From Phyto melanocephala (lineage: Eukaryota; Arthropoda; Insecta; Diptera; Rhinophoridae), in NCBI GenBank assembly GCA_941918925.1, contig OW799236.1:76944713-77008712 (forward strand): 64,000 nt of DNA, written 5' to 3'. A program made the translations under genes and the position numbers. Position 1 is the first letter of the stretch. Each line of letters starts with the position of its first letter. Positions 816 to 59,394 of this stretch are shown piece by piece. Under the pieces are notes generated by a model. It did not search any database, was not told where the DNA came from, and worked only from the letters and a program-made list of their open reading frames with translations.

Positions 816-1075
816 TCATATAGAAGAACTAAAAATAAATAAACTTAAGTCAGATATAAATAAATATAAGTTGTAATAATAATTATAGTAAAAATAAAAA
901 TGTAAAAATTGTAATTATATATTTATATTTTATTCGAACTTTTTTCTATATATTAAATTTTAATGTGAACCATTTTTATTTTTGGCTTAAGTTCATTTGT
1001 TTCTTTATTTAATTTTATAATTCAAATTAAATTAAACTGTAACCATTTTAGGAATATTCTTTCTAAAAATTATTT

Positions 1076-1143
1076 CCGATATTAGCCGAGTGGAATGCAT
1101 TTTCGAAATCAGCTACGATTTCATCATCAGCACTCTTTATCGG
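1076..1143 (-). ncRNA. Type I hammerhead ribozyme, copy 1 (intact core)
   Basis: Read on the minus strand, this 68-nt segment folds as a hammerhead. An outer stem I, CCGATA with TATCGG, is separated by an internal loop (AA opposite GGCTAA) from an inner stem I, GAGTG with CACTC. CTGATGA follows GAGTG directly. One extra T precedes stem II (GAAATC with GATTTC, loop GTAGCT). GAA then leads into AATGCATT, and a C stands at the cleavage position just before CACTC. All core positions of the family are present: CUGANGA, GAA, A15.1 with U16.1, and C17. Predicted cleavage falls between plus-strand positions 1093 and 1092. Stem III is the 8-nt palindrome AATGCATT, which as a hairpin would have only about 3 pairs, so activity may need a dimer; that is known for other small-stem-III type I hammerheads. 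The extra T after CTGATGA departs from the consensus. Related copies lie at 13.5 and 33.3 kb. Confidence 0.75.
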
Positions 1144-1214
1144 TATACTACTATGTAACTTAAAATTCCTATTTATGTTACAATTGAATGAAATTTGAAT
1201 TAGTGAATCTTATT

Positions 1215-1394
1215 ATTATTTTTCATATTTTGTTGAATATTTAATTTCAACTATCAAATGACAATTCATAATTCAACATGTTCATATTCTGCATAACAAA
1301 AATGTATTACGAATATAGAAGAATATGAACATGTTGAATTATGAATTGTCATTTGATAGGTGAAATTAAATATTCAACAAAATATGAAAAATAA
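1215..1394. repeat. 180-bp near-perfect palindrome (fold-back)
   Basis: Arms of about 75 bp at 1215-1290 and 1320-1394 are inverted copies with one mismatch that I can see (tcaactatc against tcacctatc), around a loop of about 29 bp. The element has no open frame of interest. A transcript across it would form a long hairpin RNA. It sits 72 bp from the hammerhead at 1076-1143. It may be a young fold-back element or the result of a local inverted duplication; no clear target duplication flanks it. Confidence 0.85.
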
Positions 1395-1640
1395 TTGTAA
1401 TTTTTATATATAGATAATTAATTTTAAATTCAAAAATAAAATTTATTTTTATAATATATAAACTAACACACAGAATCGCTTTTAACATTGATAAAAAATT
1501 TTTAAACGTTTTTGTAATATTTTTAGGGAATATATTTTTCAATAATGGCAAGTTTCAAAGTTAATTCATAAAAGTTATTTATGTTTAAGTTTTATTTAAG
1601 TTTAAACATTTGCTTATTCACTGCATACAAAAATTAATAC

Positions 1641-9040: not shown

Positions 9041-12000
9041 AAGACAGACGATAAGTTGTAGTCATTGACAAGTATGTTGTTTAGTAAGAGTAAATCATTA
9101 CCTTTTTTATATGAAGTTTGACAATTAGAAATTGTGAGGAAAAAGAAAAATTATATAAAATTTTAATTTTTGGGAAGAAACAGCTGATGATCAGCTGACT
9201 ATTTGAAACTACCTAATTAAGTTGAACCCGGCCCTTAAGAGCAAAATTATTTTGGATTCGTAATGCATAAACTAGTTTTTTTTACTTTGTTCTAATTAAT
9301 AATCTAAATTATTTGTTTGTTTATTTATTTCCTCTGCATTTTTGAAATAACAAACTACAACAGTATGTACTTATGTATGTGTTTTAATCTCTAGCGGATA
9401 TACCAATGTAGGTGAATTTGTAGCGTGTTAAGTGTGTAGTGGCATTAACATTTAATTTAATCTCAAATTAAAATTTATACAATTTTACATATAAGGTGAA
9501 TGTTGCCAAACATAGAGACTTGTTCAAGGAAATATGGAAATATATTTGCTAGGTGAGAGATGACATTTGTAAATCGAAATACTTTTACGCTGAATTTTAA
9601 TAACTTTATTGAAAAAATAAATTTTAAACAAAAGATGTCTCTTAGTTAAAACATTTTTGACTAATGTTCTATTTTTTGCCAATAAAAACTAGCAGTTTTG
9701 CTGTTTATTCAGTTTGTGATTCAAAGAGTAATAAAGTTTCTTTGTTTACACATACACACATTTGTATAACTTAAATATATCTTTAAACCTGCTTTTTTGT
9801 TTTTAAAACACAAAAAACACTATTGACAACTATTAAAAAAAATATTATACGAAACATATTTTCATTCGAATAAAAAAAATTTGAAAATTTTGAAAAAAAA
9901 AAAAATATTTTTAACATTAATAAATTTTAAGAGATAATTTTAATATTTAAGCATATAATGTAGAACAATTCATCCTATTTCAAACATTGACTCGATATTA
10001 TTGAAAAACCCTGTAATTTTTTCGTTTTACAAAAACTTTATTATCAGAATCAAGAAATTGTTTTTGCACTGGTTGTGGACTATTTTCTGCAGTATCGTGC
10101 AATGTATTAGGGGTATGATTTTGTACTCGTGATATGGCGAGTAGTCTTATAGGGATGAGAATAAAAATAAAGAATAAAAAATAAAAAAAAATAAAATATT
10201 CGCAATATATTTTTTTATTTCATAAAACCATGTATAACAGCGGTAGCTTCGCGTAGAATCACGGACCCAAGAATTTTTTTTTTCAATAACCCTGCCTTAT
10301 ATATCGGGCTTAGTTTCAGCAATGGCCTAATATACATGATTTGTAGATTAACTATGAGGCAATCGCTCAACTACAACTTATTGGCATAGATCTCTCTATT
10401 CATAAATTCCAACTTGAAAAAGTTAAGCATGGTTAAATCACACAATCTTAGGGGCTACTAACGTTACTAATTTACGATTGCACTTGAACACTTAATGTAA
10501 TAATAAAGTTAAATTATTTTTTATGTAATTCTCAATTCTATAACTTCCTATGGCTAATTACCCGTTAGTTTCCGATTTAAAAGCGACTGCCACAAACTGT
10601 CAACATTTACTTAATGTTATGGAAAACCCTGTAATTAATCGGAGTAAGAAATAAAAACCACTACTCTTTTAAAATGAAATTAAAATAAATTTATAGAATG
10701 TGATTATGACACATTTAATTTAACATTATGATTTGCGGTTATCTTGTTTTTAGTTTTGTGTGTGTGTTTTTTTTATTTGTGCTTCTTTAAAAATAGTCTG
10801 ACTAGGAGTGAGTGTCTGCGTATGTGAATGCTTATATGAAATAAAAATAAATAAATATTTTAAATTTAAACAAAGAACATTTTTGCAAAAATAATATTTG
10901 TTTACACTGCAGGTGATAGGTGTTTCATATTCTTTTTAAAATCGCTTACCTGTTTTCTAAATATTTTTTTTAAGTCTCCTTGTTAAGGTAGACCTTTAAT
11001 AATCTTGTATTTTTACAGAAAAAATTATTTTAGTTATTCAATATTTCGCTACTGTATTGGTGGTAACTTTTTCCCAAAATAAGCTACCCCATGTTATAGC
11101 GAAATATTGAATTATTAAAAAATGATTTTTTATATAAAAAAAAAACTGTTCTTAAGCTCGAGTTTTAGAACAACATATAAGTATGCTTTATAAAAGTTGA
11201 AAATCTAAGAAATGCATTTAAAAAAAATTCCCAAGATGCAGCAAATCAATTTTTCATAAAAACAATTTTCTAAGATTTTGCATCTTGTTTTACCTCCATG
11301 TTCTTTACAGCATTTATTTTTGGAAGCTTTTGTACTTTGACAGTATTCTGACCAGCGTCCGTTTTGTCCTTACGATCGAAAAACTTCATGAAATTAACTT
11401 TTTGAGCGCTTTTTCTTGCTGAAATATTGTTGAAATCTCTTCAACATGTCACTGATTTTGTTCGGTCTATTCTCATCAAAAAACTTTTTTTAACATAACC
11501 TGATCCACAAGTAATTCTTAAACTTCTTAAGAACTCTAGAAACCGTTTTGGACTAACCTAAAGTTTCCAAGCTCTTTTTTTCAAATGCCCACTGAGGATG
11601 GTTTTTAAAAGTATCACAATGCTCTTTCTAATAATATGTGTGTGTCTTAATTTTTTTAATTTTTCTTAAGTTTCCCTGAAGAGGCCACTCAATATGGTAG
11701 CGAAATTTTTGATTATAATAAAAAAAAATTTAATATAAAAAAATTATCTCAAAATTGAAAATTAAGGCAACACATTGATAATGATTTAAAAATTTTATTT
11801 GGATCGATTTTAATCTTTTACCGGGAATTCTTAAAAAAAACATAAAATTTTATTATATTTATTTCAGGGCCAATTTAACAAAAAAAATTTCAATTAGAAA
11901 ATTTAAACAATGTAATTGAATTTTTTTATTATTCTTTTAATTTGTACTAACAACAATTTTTAACTCTATCTTAATGAATATCATATACAAAAATTTTTTT

Positions 12001-13459: not shown

Positions 13460-13465
13460 TACCGA

Positions 13466-13530
13466 CACTAGCCGAGTAGAATGCATTTTCGAAACCAGCT
13501 ACCATTTTATCATTAGCACTCTCTGATCTG
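13466..13530 (-). ncRNA. Decayed hammerhead ribozyme, copy 2
   Basis: This is the same island as at 1076-1143. On the minus strand the inner stem I (GAGTG with TACTC), GAAAATGCATTC and part of stem II remain, but CTGATGA has become CTAATGA (the essential G5 is lost) and stem II is mismatched. It should be inactive. The flanking 'ttggttgtaaagatcatc' at 13531 is shared with copy 3, which shows that the island is part of a longer dispersed element. Confidence 0.6.
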
Positions 13531-18892: not shown

Positions 18893-19788
18893 CAGTGATG
18901 TTAACTTTTTTATTTCGATTTCCTTACTGCCCTAAAAAATTACCATTTTTAAGGTAAAATTACCGTACACAAAGCCTTGTACACAAATAATATTGTTAAA
19001 CGAGGTTATATTCAATATATTTATTTAAGAAACAACAAAACCTAAAAAAAAATAATTATTAATAATAAAATAAATTAAAATTTGTACTTTCAGAAAAATC
19101 ACTGTTTACATTTTTGTAATATTTAAAGCTTAGTGTTATACATTTGGATTGGGTTTGTTTTGCTTGCGATTGTCTAATTTAAAGCTTAATTCGATTGCAT
19201 TAATTGTTTGTGACCATATGCATTTTGTTCGAAATATAGAAAATGTTTTTTATTGGATTTAATATTTAAACCGTCGCTAGAATTAAGAAATGTTTTTCCG
19301 TGTAGAATCCCTTCAAGTGTATCAGTATTTAACCTGTTTTTTATTTTGGTTTTGTTTAGATATAATATTGAAAAAATTCGTTCTACAGTAGCCGAACTAT
19401 GTAACAATGAAAATAAATAAACCAAAAATTTTTGTAAAACAGAAACATTATGGAATCTTTACCTTTCTTTATATTGAAGGCGTTTTTGTAAAATTGAATG
19501 TCAGTTTTATCAACATCTTTAATGAATTCGCCTTGCATTTATGGCAAAAACGTAAAGAATTTAACTTCAATAATTTGCATAGTTGTAATGAAACCGTACT
19601 TATTATGACATGTTTTTATGATAAATATGTATTTCATGTATAGAATCATTGGAAAAAAACTTTTGGGGTCTAACACTTAAAAATAAAACTTTTTAAAATT
19701 ACCGTACAAATATCAAAATTACCTACCTACCGTTTGAGACTCTTAATTACCGTACAATACGGTAATTACTGTACGGTTAACAACACTG
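18893..19788 (-). mobile_element. hAT element, internally deleted
   Basis: The ends CAGTGATGTTAAC and GTTAACAACACTG are inverted repeats (one mismatch). Exact 8-bp copies of GTTGGACG flank it at 18885-18892 and 19789-19796, the hallmark of hAT integration. It carries the tail of a hAT transposase on the minus strand (see 19186-19425). Inside the ends, the interior repeats the words ttaccgtac and aattaccgta several times, which may be subterminal binding motifs. At 896 bp it is too short to be autonomous. Confidence 0.9.
19186..19425 (-). pseudogene. hAT transposase C-terminal dimerisation domain
   Basis: The 79-residue frame contains HSSATVERIFSILYLNKTK followed by NRLNTDTLEGILHGK. This is the conserved hAT C-terminal motif (S-A-x-x-E-R-x-F-S, then RNRL). 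Only the dimerisation part survives: the BED finger and the catalytic RNase H-like core are missing. The frame itself is open, so loss of the rest is by deletion rather than slow decay. Confidence 0.85.
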
Positions 19789-21988: not shown

Positions 21989-22436
21989 TTTCAAACATTT
22001 ACATTATAATGTTCGATTACTGAGTGAGAATAAATGAAAAAAATGTATTATTCTAAATGACACAAGTTATTTAAAACAGAAACCGCGTTTAAATATACAT
22101 CACGCACTTTTAAGTAATACAACTGCAACCAGGTTTAATTTTATTAAAAAATAATCGAAAAATTTTTTTAAATATTTTTTTTAATGATTCGCTAATGATT
22201 AATAAGTAAAGAGTTCAATAAAAATCAAGTAAGCAGGAAAGACAAAAAAAGCTTTCGCACATAAATATGAATTAACAAAGGCTTACAATTCCTTTCTTTT
22301 ATTTCCATTAAAACTCGTAGCTGAAATAGATGAAAACGGTGCTGTTTTCGATAGTGCATTCCACGCAGCCAGTATCATTATAACTTTTTTAGAGTACTCT
22401 TTAATTAGGTATCACTAATGTATTAGGAAATACATA

Positions 22437-25263: not shown

Positions 25264-27240
25264 CTTGCGAAATTTCTACAATTTTCATTTCCGACCCCAT
25301 AAAGTATATATTCTCTGAAAGCTTATGAATAGGGGAGTCGATTAAGCTCTGTCAGTCTGTCTGTGTGTATGTTGAAATAAACTTTTTGAAGCATCATCAA
25401 ATATTTTAATTTATCATTCTGATTAAAACATTTCGATATATTCGTTTAGGGTCCCCAAAACTGTATATCTTGTAAGCCCTGGTATTATTTAGGATGATCT
25501 AGATTGGTCCGTCTGTCCATCTCTTGAGGGATGAAATATGGCTAAACATTTTTCTGATACAACACAAATGTTTGACTTTAAATTGTTTCATTAGGGAGAG
25601 TGTTATGCATTGCAATCCAAGAGTAGGTCAGAAAACACAATGCGATAGCGGCTAAACGCAAAAACATAAAGCAATCAAGCGTATTTCTTGTTTAAAAAAG
25701 TATGTTTTTCCCGAAATTTTTTGAGTTTGTATATTATGAAATGAGCTACAACTGACGGTTAATCTACACCATTTCCAATTGTATTTCAGAAATTTCCATT
25801 TATATTTCTGAAGTTTCCAATTATATTTCAAAAGTTTCCAATTATATTTCAGAAATTTCAATTTGTGTTCTTTTTTTCTATTTGTATTTCAGAATTTTCC
25901 ACATGTATTTCAGAAATTTCTATTTGTATTTCAGAAATTTCTATTTGTATTTCAGAAATTTCCAAATGTATTTCAGCTTTTTCCATTTGTATTTCAGAAC
26001 TTTACAAATGTATTTCAGAATTTTCCAAATGTATTTTAGAAGTTTCTATTTGTATTTCAGAATTTTCCAATTGTATTTCAGAAATTTCTATTTGTATTTC
26101 AGAAATTTCCAAATGTATTTCAGCTTTTTCCATTTGTATTTCAGAACTTTACAAATGTATTTCAGAATTTTCCAAATGTATTTTAGAAGTTTCTATTTGT
26201 ATTTCAGAATTTTCCAATTGTATTTCAGAAATTTCTAATTATATTTTAGAAGTTTCCATTTATATTTCAGAAGTTTCCATTTATATTTCAGAATGGAATT
26301 TCCTTAAACCCACATAAATAGATGTAAGATGCTTAAATTTCATAAATGTGGGTAATACCTGAAAATAAAGGTGGCACGCCCACTTTAATGCTACTTTAAT
26401 TCAAAAGGATTTTGAAAGAAAAAAAGACTTTTAGCCGAAATTATTTTGACACGCTTCAACGCTCATCTTTTACTATAAAAACATAAAAATTTACAGAAAA
26501 CCAACAGAAATATTTTTATGATGCTAAAACTTCGTAAATGTGCTTATCTTGCCTGTTTTGTCGTAATATTAAAAAACGTAGGTGACACGCCTACTTTAGT
26601 CTTTACATCTTCCATAAAACGCTTTTTCTTAAATTCATATTTCACATGGACAAAGATTTTGAAGGATAAAGAACTACATGTCTTAATATCTTATTAAAGT
26701 TCATTAGCTGAAATTTCTTTGACACGCCTACTTTAATGCCCACCTTCTTATTAAAGGCATAGTCTATTATTTTTTGTGTATATTTTTTTTAATATTTTTG
26801 AAAGATTAAAATTACTATAAATGTTTGTAGTTCTGTATAATACTTAAAATATATGGGCGGGTTTATATGTGACACGCCCACTTATTAAAATATAGCTTTA
26901 ATTGATGTATCATTTTGACCGAATTTTCTAATACTATTTTTAGCATATTTTCTCCAGTTACAAATCAATTTTATGATTAAAACAGTGGTAATTGGCCACG
27001 CCCAAATAAAGTAAATACACTTGTTCAACCATTTCTGCTGACCCAAGCATAATGTAACTTTGTACACAGCTACTTTAGTTTTTTAATGCATATTAGTAAT
27101 TATATAAGTAGAAAATGCCACGCCCACATAAACAAAATATTATTTATAACTATCTACCTCATGCTAACCGAGCCTTTTTATACTTTGCATACTCATTAAG
27201 ATTTCGTGAAAATACAATATGTTGTCAAAAATGGGCAGTT
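25264..27240 (+). repeat. Dispersed fly repeat copy with 'cacgcccac' modules
   Basis: It starts with the 'accccataaagtatata' block (25293) and continues with repeated modules containing 'gacacgcc.actttaatgc' at about 26370, 26590, 26720, 26870, 26998 and 27118. The same modules occur at 34.3 kb and 57.8-58.6 kb. The right end cannot be fixed. The minisatellite at 25771-26292 lies within it. Confidence 0.65.
25771..26292 (+). repeat. 21-bp minisatellite with a 147-bp higher-order unit
   Basis: About 25 copies of a 21-bp unit of the type tttccatttgtatttcagaa. A block of seven units is duplicated: 'cagctttttcc' occurs at 25974 and again at 26121, exactly 147 bp apart. Because 21 is a multiple of three and the unit lacks stops, two overlapping plus frames (25865-26317 and 25882-26238) stay open with heptad peptides such as CISEISI; these are artefacts of the repeat. 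Nearly every unit ends in a pyrimidine-rich run plus TTTCAG or TTTTAG, the form of a 3' splice acceptor on the plus strand. Confidence 0.9.
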
Positions 27241-32618: not shown

Positions 32619-32860
32619 ATTACCAACATTCTTTTGATGTACAAGTTTATTCATAAAGAAATTAAAAAAACAAGTAAGAGTGCTATATTCGGCCGTTCCG
32701 AATCTTATATACCCTTCACAACGTGTAGTCATGCAATAAATTACCAACATTCTTTTGAGGTACAAGTTTATTCATAAAGAAATTAAAAAACAAGTAAGAG
32801 TGCTATATTCGACCGTGCCAAATCTAAAAATACCCTTCACTATCATGCACATAGGTATAA
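32619..32860 (-). repeat. Tandemly duplicated end of the dispersed fly repeat
   Basis: A 121-bp segment starting 'attaccaacattctttt' at 32619 is repeated at 32740. Each copy contains the inverted form of the repeat end, 'caagtaagagtgctatatt' then cggccg or cgaccg. So two copies of the same terminus lie head to tail, without the body of the element. Confidence 0.8.
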
Positions 32861-33010: not shown

Positions 33011-33264
33011 TGTTAATTTTTCTTTGTAGCCAAACGTATCATACTATATTTATTACTCAAAAAATTTGAAAAAAAATCAGAAAATTTTATTGTTATTTAT
33101 TTGTTGTTTCTTAAAGAATTTTTATCTTAATTTTAAATTTATTTTTAATACTTAATTTTTCAACTAAAATTCAAATATTCAAAAACACAAGCTTGAGTTT
33201 AATTTTTCAAACATTCTTATTTTTACAAAAAGTTTTTTAATAATGTGATAATAATGAATAATCT

Positions 33265-33345
33265 GGAAAAGTATGCTGAGTAGAATGCATTTTCGAAACC
33301 AGCTTCGATTTCATCATCAGCACTGTTAGATTGGCGATTACGTGT
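33265..33345 (-). ncRNA. Hammerhead ribozyme, copy 3 (core intact, short stem I)
   Basis: On the minus strand: ACAGTG, then CTGATGA, T, stem II GAAATC with GGTTTC (loop GAAGCT, one G-U pair), then GAA, AATGCATT and C, followed by TACTC. All catalytic positions are kept. The inner stem I is only 4 pairs, including one G-U, and the outer stem I is not obvious. The flanking 'ttggttgtaaatatcatc' at 33344 is shared with copy 2. It may be weakly active or decaying. Confidence 0.65.
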
Positions 33346-33594
33346 TGGTTGTAAATATCATCTATTTAACTTACTTTTTTTTTTTTTTGTTAATTGAATT
33401 TATTTTGTTTAAATATTTATTTTTTAAATTTTTTCTTACTAAAATTTGTATTTATTTAAAAAAAATTTAAAGGGGCATTTCCTTTTTTTTATAAATTTTT
33501 CTAAGATTCAAATTATGTTATACATATTTAAATATTTTTGAATAATTATAAACATTTTTGACAATTATCATTGTTTTTATAAAAGATTTTAGTC

Positions 33595-34599: not shown

Positions 34600-35690
34600 G
34601 GGAATATCGAAGCAGACCACTACTATCACGGGTCCCTTTTCGACCCCCTTCGCTCCTCATTGATTTCGTGTCCACCGATCAGTATACCTTCAATGACTGA
34701 GTCTCGCGGCACAACCGGCGTTTGCTCTGAACTAGGAAAACGATTTCACACTGCCGACTGGTGATTGTCGACAATCCTTATCGCACAGTCCTTTGTAATC
34801 TCCAGCATCTACCTCAGACTAAGGTCCCCCATCGCACTTACACTTAATGTGTGCTTGCCTGTGATCCTTAATCTTCCGCTCCCCAACGCCGGACACTCGC
34901 ATACTACATGCGCTGCTGTCTCGGCATCCTCCAGGCACATTCTACAAATATAATCCACGATCTGCATCCCCTTCAGATGATATTTGAAGTTCCCATGTTC
35001 TGTAATTAACGCAGTGATCCTGCTCATCATACTCCGATTAAAACCGAGTATCTTCACTGCACCCCTGCCAAGTGGCTCCCTGAGCACCATACGAGCCTGT
35101 CTACACGTAGTTCCATCCATCCACCTTCGCAAGTTCATAGAGTTCACCCATTGAAAGATCTTCGCCCGCACTAACCCATTGCCCAGAGCAGTTCTGGGTT
35201 CCGGTCCGCAGAATTCAGCCTCAGACCCCTTCTTCGTCAGCAGCCTCATTGCCAGCTATGCCCACGTGTCCCTTAACCCACATAAGCGTTACCTAATTTG
35301 TAGAGGCACACCTATTGAGCTTTAAAACACACTCAAGCACCAAAGAGGATTTCAAATCTATCCGCTGCATACCAACTGGTCGTCAAGTGCAATAAGAATT
35401 CTCTTTTCATGCATTCGACATTTCAACAGGTGGTCCAACGCGAGCAGCAAACCAAGCATTTCTGCCTGATAGACTGACACGTACTCCCCCAGATTCAGGG
35501 TGCAGGATAGGTTCAACTCAAATGAGTACACACCAGCACCTGCCCTTCTTCCGTCCATAAAGGACCCATCAGTAAAGATACTGATGTCATTCTCCATGCA
35601 CTCATCGTGCATGAATCTATCCGCTATGAGCGTGTGATGTAGCCTTTCGACCACTTTCACCCGACTCATGCGCTCGATATAGTTTTAAGT
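34600..35690 (-). pseudogene. LINE (LOA/I-like) RNase H and C-terminal fragment
   Basis: The minus-strand frame 35669-35358 carries a retroelement RNase H: ISIFTDGSFMDGRRAGAGVY (first catalytic D), then YQAEMLGLLLALDHLL (catalytic E), then ILIALDDQ (catalytic D), although the usual SDSQ is changed. After a stop, the lost frame reads VTLMWVKGHVGIAGNEAADE, the last RNase H box, and a frameshift leads into 35249-34809. That frame holds a C-terminal zinc knuckle (CRMCLEDAETAAHVVCECPAL). The fragment is GC-richer than its surroundings, so it is relatively young. The reverse transcriptase and 5' parts are missing (5' truncation at about 35690). The clade is inferred from the RNase H plus knuckle arrangement. 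Confidence 0.85.
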
Positions 35691-54483: not shown

Positions 54484-55452
54484 TTTTTTATACACTTTAC
54501 CTGTGGTGCACAAGGGTATATATAGCTTTGTAATTTCTAAAATTTTCATTTCCGACCCCATAAAGTATATATTTTCTAAAAGCTTATGAATAGAGAAGTC
54601 GATCAGGACATGTCCGTCTGTCCGTGTATTGTTTGAAATCAACTTTTAGAAGCAACTATAGTTCCTCAGATCTGTGTATGGTATCAATCTTTAGGAAATA
54701 GCAGGGAATGAATTGCTATCAAAATTCATCACCATTGCCCCATAACTTTCTGAAATATAAGCAAATAAACACGACGCCTCTGTTTTTTCCCCTACTTTTT
54801 TGCCACCAAAATTAAAATTTTTTAGCCATAGAATAATTTATAGGAACCTTGGCTACTATTTGTAGATATAATATGCCTCTAGAGATATTCGTGAAAATTT
54901 TTGGATAAAGCGTGCTCTAATCGGTAAAGTTATAGGCAAAAATCTTTTTTAAAAATATATATTCCAAAAATTTACAAACGAAAGTAAATTTTTTTGAGCT
55001 TCTAGACAACCGGGAGGGTCAATATTGGTATCATCTGAAAGGACTTGACTAGCGCAATATAAGCACTATAAAAAATTAAAATTCCTGTTGGCCGCCACCA
55101 CAAAATGGCGGATAAAAAATTTATATATGGGCCAAATCTTGTATTTTAAATTGAACCCCCTCAATGTTGGTATCAAATTAAAGGGCTTGACTAGTAGAAT
55201 ACAGTAAATTATTAAAAAATTTAAATTCCAAGATGGCGTCTCAAACAAAATGGCGGATCAAATTTGTTTAACCCCATCAATATGGGTATCAAATTAAAAG
55301 GCTTGACTAGTAGAATACAAATAACGTAAAAATTCAAAATCAAAGATGGCGTCAGAAATAGTAACGATATAGCATTATACCTATGTACATGATGGTGAAG
55401 GGTATTATCAGATTCGACACGGCCGAATATATGTAGCACTCTTACTTGTTTA
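54484..55452 (+). repeat. Dispersed fly repeat, nearly complete copy
   Basis: It runs from 'ttttttatacactttacctg' through the 'accccataaagtatata' block (54555), a gtccgtctgtccg run and two modules with 'caaaatggcgga' plus 'cttgactag' (55103, 55245), to 'gaagggtattatcag', 'cacggccgaatata' and 'ctcttacttgtt'. It is about 970 bp and non-coding. Minus-strand frames at 55066-55248 and 55221-55439 are read from the repeated modules. Confidence 0.8.
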
Positions 55453-57241: not shown

Positions 57242-59394
57242 TTTTATACCCGCCACCAAAAAAATGGTGGGGGTATATTCATTTTGTCATTCCGTTTGTA
57301 ACACATCGAAATATCCATTTTAGACCCCATAAAGTATATATATTCTGAATCAGGGTTTGATTTGATGACGATCTAGCTATGTCCGTCCGTCTGTCCGTCT
57401 GTTGAAAGCACGATAGAGGTCGCACCGAAAAAGCTAGGGGGCTCAAATTTTGCAAGAATCTTTCTTATAGACAAGGTTTGTTTGGTATTGAAAATCGGAA
57501 TATTAGGAAGAGAGCTATAGCTCGAAAAGCAAGAGTAGGTCGAAAAACCGTGTCCTTCGAACATCGAATAAAATGGAATTGTGTCCAAACGCCTTAACGT
57601 AGACTCATGAAACTTCGAATATATATTTCCTGGGTAAATATTTTTCCCCGAAAATTGTCTAAATCTATGCATTAGAAGAGGAGTTATCGATCAAAATGTA
57701 CGAAAATTTATACCGCACAGTGTATTTTTCGGTATATTTAAAAACAAAAACGTCATAAAAGCAACAAAATTGGATGTACGACTCTGAAATTTTGCACACT
57801 TTGCTTTTTGGTGACACGCTTTCTTGTAACGGCAAATCAATGTGCCACGCCCACTTTTACGCCCACCTCCCACATAACGTTTTAACTAAAATTCATATAA
57901 TTTCTCTATTAATAAAGATTTTGGAATAATAAAGGCCTATCTTGAAACACCTCAGTTGTACTCATTCGCAAAAATAACTTTGACACGCCTACTATAACGC
58001 CCACTTTTCACGTTATCTACCGTTAATGAAATTTAAAAGCTTATAAAACCGCCAAAATTAGAGGTATGATGATAAAATTTGCTACGTATATCCCCCTAGG
58101 CATTGTCATTACTGTGCCAGAAAATTAAGGTGCCACGCCCACTTTTACGCCCACCTCCCATATAACGTTTTACTCAAAATTCATATAATTTCTCTATTAA
58201 TAAAGATTTTGGAATTATAAAGGGCTATATTGAAACACCTCAGTTGTACTCATTCGCAAAAATAACATTGACACGCCTACTATAACGCCCACTTTTCACG
58301 TAATCTACCGTTAATGAAATTTAAAAGCTCATAAAACTGCCAAAATTAGAAGTATAATGATCAAATTTGCTACGTATATCCTTCTAATCTAATGTTATTG
58401 TTGTTGTCAAAAAGTTTAGGTGACACGCCCTCTTTAACGCCTACCTCCCATATCTTAAATTCATGTAATTTCTCTATTGACAAAGTTTTTGGGAAAATAA
58501 AGGACTATATTGAAACATCTAACTTTTATTTGTTAGCAGAAACTTTATTGACACGCCTACTTTAACGCCCACTTTCATTGAAAGACTACATTTACAAAAA
58601 CATTTTAGTAGCATATCGAAGTTATAAAGGGTGGTTAAATTTTAAGGGCCGACGTTGATTTTAAATAAAACACAAATTATTTAAGAAATTATTATCATTT
58701 CTTTTTATAATGATAATATTTGTATGGTTCAATTATGTATATAACAAAATATCGGCCAAATGCAACCCACCCCCATCCTTGGCGACACTCCTCTATCTGA
58801 TGGTCCAAATTTTCAATGGCAATGTTGATGCTCAATTGTTGGGCATGATGATGAGGCGAGGTTGACTTCTCTTTTGCCATACTATCGCAAAAACCAGCAG
58901 TGGTTCCCATTCAACGAACTAAGAAGGCATTCACAGATTTTCTAACATTTTATACAGACCTGTTTTGCAGAAATTTAAATATTTTTTACAATTCTCCCGA
59001 TTGTGGACGAATTTGAACGATTATGTTGATCAAAAGAATTACGAAGTGCACAAAATGCATTTTGATTTGAACGCCCATTTTTATAAAAAACCTGAATAAC
59101 TTTAAAGCATTGCTCATTTGCGTATCTTTCCACGGATCAAATTGAGTAAGTTTGAGATTGAGAAATGTCAAGTGAAGTGCAAAAAACAAGTTTAAAGACA
59201 AGGTGTAGTTCACCTTCAACATGGGCCCTTAAAATTTAACCACCCTCTACAAAGAAAGTGATACATATTTTATTATAAAGAGATTATTCCATAATGATTA
59301 ACAAAATAATAAATATTGTGCTTTAAATGTACACAGAATTGGTGGTGGGTATAAAAGATTCGGCACAGCCGAATATAGTGCTCTTACTTGTTTT
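57242..59394 (+). repeat. Dispersed fly repeat, long copy with nested MITE
   Basis: It begins 'tttatacccgccaccaaaa', has the 'accccataaagtatata' block (57323) and the gtccgtc run, then three diverged copies of a module of about 295 bp ('cacgcccacttttacgccca' at 57846 and 58136, and a third with 'gacacgccctctttaacg' near 58423), and ends 'gtgggtataaaagattcgg' with 'ctcttacttgtttt'. The 621-bp MITE at 58627-59247 is inserted near its right end. No coding capacity was seen. Confidence 0.85.
58627..59247 (-). mobile_element. Rosa-type mariner deletion derivative (621 bp)
   Basis: The termini aagggtggttaaattttaag, then ggcc, are inverted at 59224-59247 with one mismatch, and TA flanks both sides. 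On the minus strand the N-terminal helix-turn-helix survives (ALKVIQVFYKNGRSNQNAF then CALRNSF and HNRSNSSTIGRI, about 59090-58990), and near the other end a C-terminal tail (RSVAKDGGGLHLADIL, about 58810-58750). The whole catalytic domain between them has been deleted. The frame at 58695-58910 is the C-terminal part read out of phase. Confidence 0.85.

Follow-up and report, generated by a model that had tools for sequence, protein, structure and literature searches.

The window analysed here, a 64-kb stretch of DNA taken as a whole, carries a type I hammerhead motif on the minus strand at 1076-1143. The motif is a real one, and it sits in a larger object, a two-armed retroelement insertion at about 907-1402. 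The first-pass annotation described the ribozyme alone; its reading of the architecture and of the context stands, and the insertion is what has to be added to it. Three further copies of related elements and two fragments of Penelope-like elements lie elsewhere in the window, as listed below; L090 is a Penelope-like unit from elsewhere in the source genome.

907..916, no strand: left copy of a possible target-site duplication, AATTGTAATT, 10 bp, overlapping the arm by 5 bp
912..1290, minus strand: left arm of the insertion, from RNA position 181 of the 544-nt unit back to 347, 97.6% identical to the unit
930..941, minus strand: AAGTTCGAATAA, containing the AAGNTCGANNAA motif; one occurrence in the window, both strands scanned
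1076..1143, minus strand: type I hammerhead motif (copy 1, family A), from direct reading and a descriptor match
1291..1395, plus strand: right arm of the insertion, RNA positions 318-422, in the opposite orientation, 97.1% identical to the unit
1393..1402, no strand: right copy of the possible target-site duplication AATTGTAATT, 10 bp
11070..11161, plus strand: second Penelope-like pLTR fragment, 76% identical to L090
11647..11781, plus strand: Penelope-like pLTR fragment, 73% identical to L090
13366..13600, minus strand: third retrozyme copy, 80% identical to the family B unit
22329..22415, plus strand: fourth, decayed copy, with stem II GAAAAC/GTTTTC
33158..33374, minus strand: second, older retrozyme copy, family B-like, 74% identical to the family B unit

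Read from 1143 to 1076, the minus strand gives CCGATA AA GAGTG CTGATGA T GAAATC GTAGCT GATTTC GAA AATGCATT C CACTC GGCTAA TATCGG, which bears out the order of elements claimed by the first-pass annotation. Stem I is made of a distal helix (CCGATA/TATCGG) and a proximal one (GAGTG/CACTC), stem II is the 6-bp GAAATC/GATTTC with loop II GTAGCT, and AATGCATT provides stem III. The core, CTGATGA...GAA, does contain the extra U after A9 that had been remarked on. C17 is base 1093, and the predicted cut falls between 1093 and 1092. All parts of the type I definition are found in copy 1: C3UGANGA9, G12A13A14, the A15.1-U16.1 pair, H17, and an arrangement of three helices of which stem I is the open one. 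A viroid hammerhead whose core has one additional nucleotide, placed between A9 and stem II, was reportedly described by De la Pena and Flores in 2001; here that nucleotide is a U in an animal genome, whereas the hammerhead of the co-resident Penelope-like element has an A.

The motif was also searched for with a descriptor comprising the core, a mismatch-free stem II of 4-7 bp, A15.1 and U16.1 together with three closing pairs, an H17 other than G, a stem I of 4 bp, and 0 or 1 insertion after A9. It matched twice in the window (at 1130 and 33320, both on the minus strand) and in none of 300 windows simulated from the window's dinucleotide frequencies, and a chance motif was therefore rejected. 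The type I architecture proposed earlier is supported by sequence and by repetition, self-cleavage itself being predicted. Rfam covariance models, which had been suggested as a check, gave one of the three outcomes that had been named as refuting, as no hammerhead model matched at the motif. In searches run without a positive control, none matched in the whole window at gathering scores, in 900-1300 (401 bases) up to E 1, or in 1070-1150 (81 bases) or four retrozyme-bearing loci up to E 10. We read this miss as a gap in the models, which may be ill suited to the extra core nucleotide and the tiny stem III. The Rfam matches to C/D snoRNAs were weak, every one of them below cut-off, and this candidate was rejected.

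Stem III of copy 1 can be drawn as two pairs capped by UGCA or, if two molecules come together, as eight pairs, the latter possible because AAUGCAUU is a palindrome. In addition, UAGCU of loop II and GGCUA in the internal loop of stem I are able to form five base pairs, a pseudoknot of the same kind as one in the accessible text of PMC3088659. Each pair of this pseudoknot is kept in 90-98% of 48 distinct segments mostly picked by the core pattern, three proximal stem I pairs are kept in 88-94%, and the stem II pairs in 94-100%. Because most of the 48 were found through the core and stem II pattern, only the 3' half is a fair sample of conservation. One stem II pair varies among them (TA in 24, TG in 20, CG in 1, and unpaired CA in 2 and TT in 1). 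It reads AT in the decayed copy starting at 22329, where GAAAAC/GTTTTC differs from GAAATC/GATTTC by one pair changed on both sides.

Folding with ViennaRNA favours a GAGUGC/GCAUUC hairpin around stem II over the hammerhead, by 3.9 kcal/mol when stem III is omitted and by 7.0 kcal/mol with the two-pair stem III, tertiary contacts being ignored. The hammerhead fold reaches -13.0 kcal/mol, or -9.9 with stem III, against -16.9 for the best monomer fold, and the proximal stem I has a predicted probability of 0 with tertiary contacts left out. This competing hairpin would count against easy activity of the monomer; copy 1 may act as a dimer, given a two-pair stem III as in axolotl Amex2. One could propose that the hairpin, as the minimum-energy fold, is itself what is conserved, as a protein-binding element and not a ribozyme. 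We find this very improbable, as it leaves unexplained why CUGAUGA, GAA, A15.1-U16.1 and C17 are all in place, a combination met in none of the simulated windows. A G-to-A change in L066, judged by eye, also breaks a C-G pair of the hairpin and spares the hammerhead.

In the insertion that carries copy 1, the left arm is antisense on the plus strand, passes the cleavage junction, and contains the hammerhead. The outer end of the right arm, at RNA position 422, is atypical, as this end lies near 143 or 183 in most sampled elements, and the possible 10-bp duplication is shorter than the 13-16 bp seen in 16 other elements. The hammerhead core of the second copy is intact at 33278-33320, with 3 mismatches in 43. 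In the third copy, the hammerhead at 13462-13528 has a broken core, CTAATGA, and is probably inactive because G5 is changed to A. Over the window as a whole, the core is intact in two copies, and the other two are decayed. The Penelope-like fragment at 11647..11781 carries that element's own minimal hammerhead, CTGAAGA...GGTAGCGAAA.

The search for further genomic copies that had been suggested was productive. A 30-base core pattern, CTGATGATGAAATCGNNGCTGNTTTCGAAA with 3 positions free, had 3,680 matches in the source genome (739.75 Mb, 9 contigs), about equally divided between the two strands (1859 + 1821), and its reversed control had 0. Motif patterns found no match in the viral_contigs and genome_contigs collections. 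The loci studied are a sample from the first 100 pattern matches, all within the first 29 Mb of contig C1, plus further arrays. They belong to family A, with stem II GATTTC and a unit of 544 nt in L031, and to the more diverged family B, with stem II GGTTTC, a unit of 563 nt in L081 and a motif spacing of 585 in L042. Similarity between the A and B units is 94% over 53 nt up to the cleavage site and 72% over a 258-nt stretch covering the ribozyme and reaching about +200, with no other significant similarity among the 12 BLAST matches listed. Within the sense arm of the B array L081, 765 bp of other sequence (1307-2071) lies between RNA positions 349 and 348.

The G+C content of the two units is 0.24 and 0.28, and their longest open frames are 56 aa (A) and 119 aa (B), with no reverse transcriptase (RT) or GIY-YIG ORF in either. 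As non-coding repeats of low G+C with tandem copies and a type I hammerhead, they resemble the non-LTR retrozymes that Cervera and de la Pena (2020, PMC7229834) report, in the portion of that paper available to us, from animals including insects, together with circular RNAs. Their 2-bp stem III with a tetraloop and the presence of co-resident Penelope elements are points of likeness noted there as well. The units here, at 543-585 nt, are longer than the about 170-400 nt given in that portion for animal retrozymes. These features, taken with the structure of the insertions described below, make it probable, to our minds, that the hammerhead belongs to a short non-coding non-LTR retrozyme mobilised in trans by a co-resident Penelope-like element.

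These insertions are often mirrored, with antisense units followed by sense units. When the A unit was mapped on 28 loci (the window copy included), 19 had both orientations, all of them with the antisense arm on the left and the sense arm on the right, and 3 further A arrays were likewise antisense-sense. The arms of L062 are 950 bp apart and may represent two insertions. Target duplications of 13-16 bp flank 16 of the 19 two-arm A elements (in L053 several bases outside the mapped ends). As a control, left and right flanks of different elements, the window copy excluded, were paired, and at least 13 bp was reached in 1 of 306 pairings, with a mean of 6.7. Among 25 mapped genomic loci of family B, 9 had both orientations; eight were antisense-sense and L041 was mixed, and duplications of 12-16 bp were found at 6 of the 9.

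The outer ends of the arms are also defined, typically at +143 and +183 as counted from the cleavage site. In the 16 A elements with duplications, one outer end lies at RNA position 138-147 (128 in L037) and the other at 175-186 (in L059, 165 under stricter scoring and otherwise 184). The three two-arm loci that do not fit are L032, L062, and the window copy with its right end at 422. Further A arrays end at 139/178 (L083) and 179/141 (L085); in L084, the mapped left end falls on the border of the retrieved sequence. Family B ends at 134-138 and 169-176 in 6 of 9 loci, with 125/172 in L078 and 127/161 in L079. In most insertions, each of two start sites about 33-45 nt apart thus serves one side. 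The distal site is preceded by AAGTTCGAATAA in A or AAGTTCGACAAA in B, after which comes an A/C-rich stretch with GGCACGGTG; the fold of the start-site region had no excess stability (z 0.55).

Long inverted repeats between target duplications might bring to mind a foldback-like DNA transposon or MITE whose ends are long inverted repeats and in which the hammerhead-like hairpin arose by accident. Variable inner junctions, two end sites about 40 nt apart and multi-unit arms argue against such an element, as does the recurrence of this geometry in RT-encoding elements; we rejected it on its ends and junctions, and regard it as hardly credible. Fold-back self-priming, suggested for rotifer Penelope, would also yield palindromic arrays, in place of priming on two strands. 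It was inferred from head-to-head inverted repeats in the available text of PMC3846280, and L031 is just such an inverted repeat, 99.4% over 5.2 kb. A copy made in this way, however, should end where the first arm began, while the outer ends are mostly at about 143 on one side and about 183 on the other. The inner ends of the two arms usually differ as well (505/317, 353/218, 319/90), the equal ends of L083 (129/129) being an exception. Pure fold-back self-priming was rejected on the unequal outer ends, and we judge a contribution of this kind improbable.

The retrozyme units A and B lack an ORF with RT and GIY-YIG domains, and separate elements of the genome have an RT and a weak GIY-YIG. When the source genome was searched for GIY-YIG at E 10, 122 matches came up, and 15 of these lay in frames of 843-859 aa; at the stricter E 0.001, the only match was an ORF that we take to be SLX1. 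Several of the Penelope-like frames sit in mirrored arrays of 3.05-3.09 kb units. The L090 unit has an 825-aa frame with RVT_1 at E 1.5e-9 and a weak GIY-YIG at E 0.0014, below Pfam's curated cut-off; its hammerhead is minimal and has an A inserted after A9. Penelope-like open frames of up to about 849 aa are present at C3:6154517-6167111, C5:51663159-51683886 and C4:5247507-5255767, in arrays of 3.05-3.09 kb units with retrozyme-like architecture. The Penelope or retrozyme context guessed from the ribozyme proved right, given the larger retroelement and these co-resident elements.

The geometry of the Penelope arrays is close to that of the retrozymes. Four arrays with their ends fetched, L090 among them, end at +62 to +66 and +100 to +106 from the cut of their own hammerhead, and the two sites are 34-41 nt apart in all four. 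Their duplications measure 13 (mostly A), 12, 15 and 13 bp. This Penelope-type geometry, found in 4 of 4 Penelope arrays of the same genome, is shared by 16 of 19 retrozymes in A and 6 of 9 in B. The two kinds of element also share AAGNTCGANNAA, about 25-30 nt before both Penelope ends (+38 and +74) and before the distal retrozyme ends (152 in A, 143 in B). Exact AAGNTCGANNAA is absent before the proximal retrozyme ends, and it does not occur in 2.3 kb of Penelope ORF; its rarity is no formal test, since the motif was chosen after these sequences had been seen. Retrozyme and Penelope are otherwise little alike, the best BLAST piece being 18 nt at E 0.013. From the end geometry and the AAGNTCGANNAA motif, we infer that Penelope moves the retrozyme. 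Our confidence in this Penelope-driven reading is slightly lowered by the missing AAGNTCGANNAA before the proximal ends and by the 12 of 19 elements that lack a private variant (see below).

According to the accessible part of PMC3846280, Penelope insertions are marked by arms joined head to head, a tail of 31 bp on one of them, and short duplications. The purified anole Penelope protein extends both strands and begins at two neighbouring internal positions, by which the tail is defined, with no strand preference seen (PMC11167929); cleavage was dispensable in vitro, and hammerhead mutants had no effect on insertion. For the retrozyme, the unit would be transcribed, the hammerhead would cut the transcript, and a monomer of 543-585 nt would be closed into a circle, presumably by a ligase. 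The Penelope RT/endonuclease may then recognise AAGNTCGANNAA-like signals downstream of the ribozyme, acting in trans, and cut both strands of an AT-rich target. Each target strand would prime reverse transcription at one of the two sites about 40 nt apart, and the two cDNAs would pass the ribozyme, sometimes through several rounds of the template. Joined head to head, they would leave antisense units followed by sense units between 13-16 bp target duplications. This mechanism appears well supported by genome structure.

The template of each array can be approached through variants and unit lengths. A private fixed variant is defined here as one shared by every covering unit of an element and absent from the 18 others. 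Such variants were found in 7 of 19 elements, always in both arms: T51C and C324T in 15/15 units of both arms of L083, C54G in 12/12 units of L031, G30A and G318A in 6/6 units of L035, A516G in 5/5 units of L085, three sites (2-3 units) in L033, and one variant each in both single arms of L051 and L061. In the other 12 elements, none was seen, and partly present variants occur in 16 of the 19 (0-4 each). Unit length is constant in 7 of the 9 arrays with two or more spacings and differs between arrays; one double-length gap was dropped, and 0 of 20,000 shuffles were as tight. Together, private variants and array-specific unit lengths suggest one template per array. Some heterogeneity is also present, as a longer unit of 549 bp is third from the junction in both arms of L031, and the units of L035 range from 549 to 563 bp. 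In one arm of L083, units 2 and 4 have three variants in common that the other arm does not carry. Conversion, duplication or a linear multimer are possible sources.

The cleavage junction is crossed by 32 of 38 arms (19 elements, with L032, L062 and the window copy left out), and no arm stops within 8 nt of it; the template was therefore not a cleaved linear monomer. From the pattern of variants and lengths, it was probably circular, although arms that cross the site are also compatible with an uncleaved multimeric RNA. The same element and the same Penelope machinery could also work from an uncleaved linear multimer, the transcript of an array already in the genome, on the model put forward for anole Penelope, with the hammerhead a relic or later-acting and the arrays kept uniform by unequal exchange and arm-to-arm conversion. 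The in vitro indifference of insertion to hammerhead mutants (PMC11167929) favours this, as do the arms crossing the site, the absence of a private fixed variant from 12 of 19 elements, the occurrence of 3.05-3.09 kb Penelope units in mirrored arrays as well, and the mirrored 549-bp unit of L031 and units 2 and 4 of L083, which may record heterogeneity or exchange. However, variants fixed in 15/15, 12/12 and 6/6 units, with 2-3 partial variants in each of these arrays, favour a circle, an array-specific unit length fits one circular template better, and the variants of L083 units 2 and 4 have not passed to the other arm. On balance, we consider the linear multimer rather unlikely.

Returning to the circular template, a broader proposal would make animal retrozymes circular-RNA parasites of Penelope, in which one circle made by the ribozyme is copied in rolling-circle fashion from two adjacent starts at once, each primed by one of the cut target strands, by a protein that is probably dimeric. 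The dimeric Penelope protein would probably be bound to two repeated AAGNTCGANNAA-like signals, and the unit length and private mutations of a mirrored array would record a single parent circle. We regard the case for this generalisation as evenly balanced.

Among known systems, Penelope-like elements (PMC11167929, and PMC3846280 as far as its text is available) share a hammerhead within the repeat, head-to-head inverted arms, tandem copies, a tail of 30-40 nt confined to one end, short target duplications and two start sites. The retrozymes differ from them in having no comparable ORF and a fuller hammerhead, with a possible pseudoknot, in place of a minimal one. Compared with what the available portion of PMC7229834 describes for animal retrozymes, the elements here have mirrored arrays, defined ends, target duplications and the extra U after A9, and their shared start-site signal indicates a particular machinery. 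Axolotl retrozyme hammerheads in the same portion likewise have a very short stem III with a tetraloop, two pairs in Amex2; mirrored arrays, present here, are not mentioned in it. Hammerheads of Aedes aegypti also lie in an interspersed repeat of an insect, for which the accessible text of PMC3088659 gives no element structure or mechanism, and type III hammerheads are mentioned in dipterans in that of PMC7936874. A 2020 review (PMC7761336, in its accessible part) describes metazoan non-LTR retrozymes as having no conserved motif that would reveal the autonomous retrotransposon mobilising them. Our literature search, which many subscription journals fell outside, found no paper that connects retrozymes with Penelope through the structure of their ends.

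For the elements described here, both start sites, the positions of the ends and the shared signal point to Penelope as the machinery. If mirrored arrays are a genomic record of template topology, the question of a circular intermediate becomes testable by sequence. The tendency towards one end at each start site may be a clue to how Penelope joins two cDNAs. It also matters that the Rfam models miss a hammerhead motif of which a single genome has thousands of copies.

The window contains several other repeats and remnants. Tandem arrays lie at 25771-26293 (21-bp units, 25 copies) and 57834-58575 (288-bp units, 2.6 copies). On the minus strand, a LINE-like remnant (RNase H, zf-RVT) at 34812-35684 and a remnant resembling the C-terminus of a hAT transposase at 19189-19458 are both below Pfam cut-offs. 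A short dispersed repeat, GAAGGGTATATAAGATTCGG...GCCGAATATAGCACTCTTACTTG, which we believe to be one familiar from fly genomes, occurs at 742-819, 32619-32840, 55395-55451 and 59347-59394, and part of it forms a 121-bp tandem.
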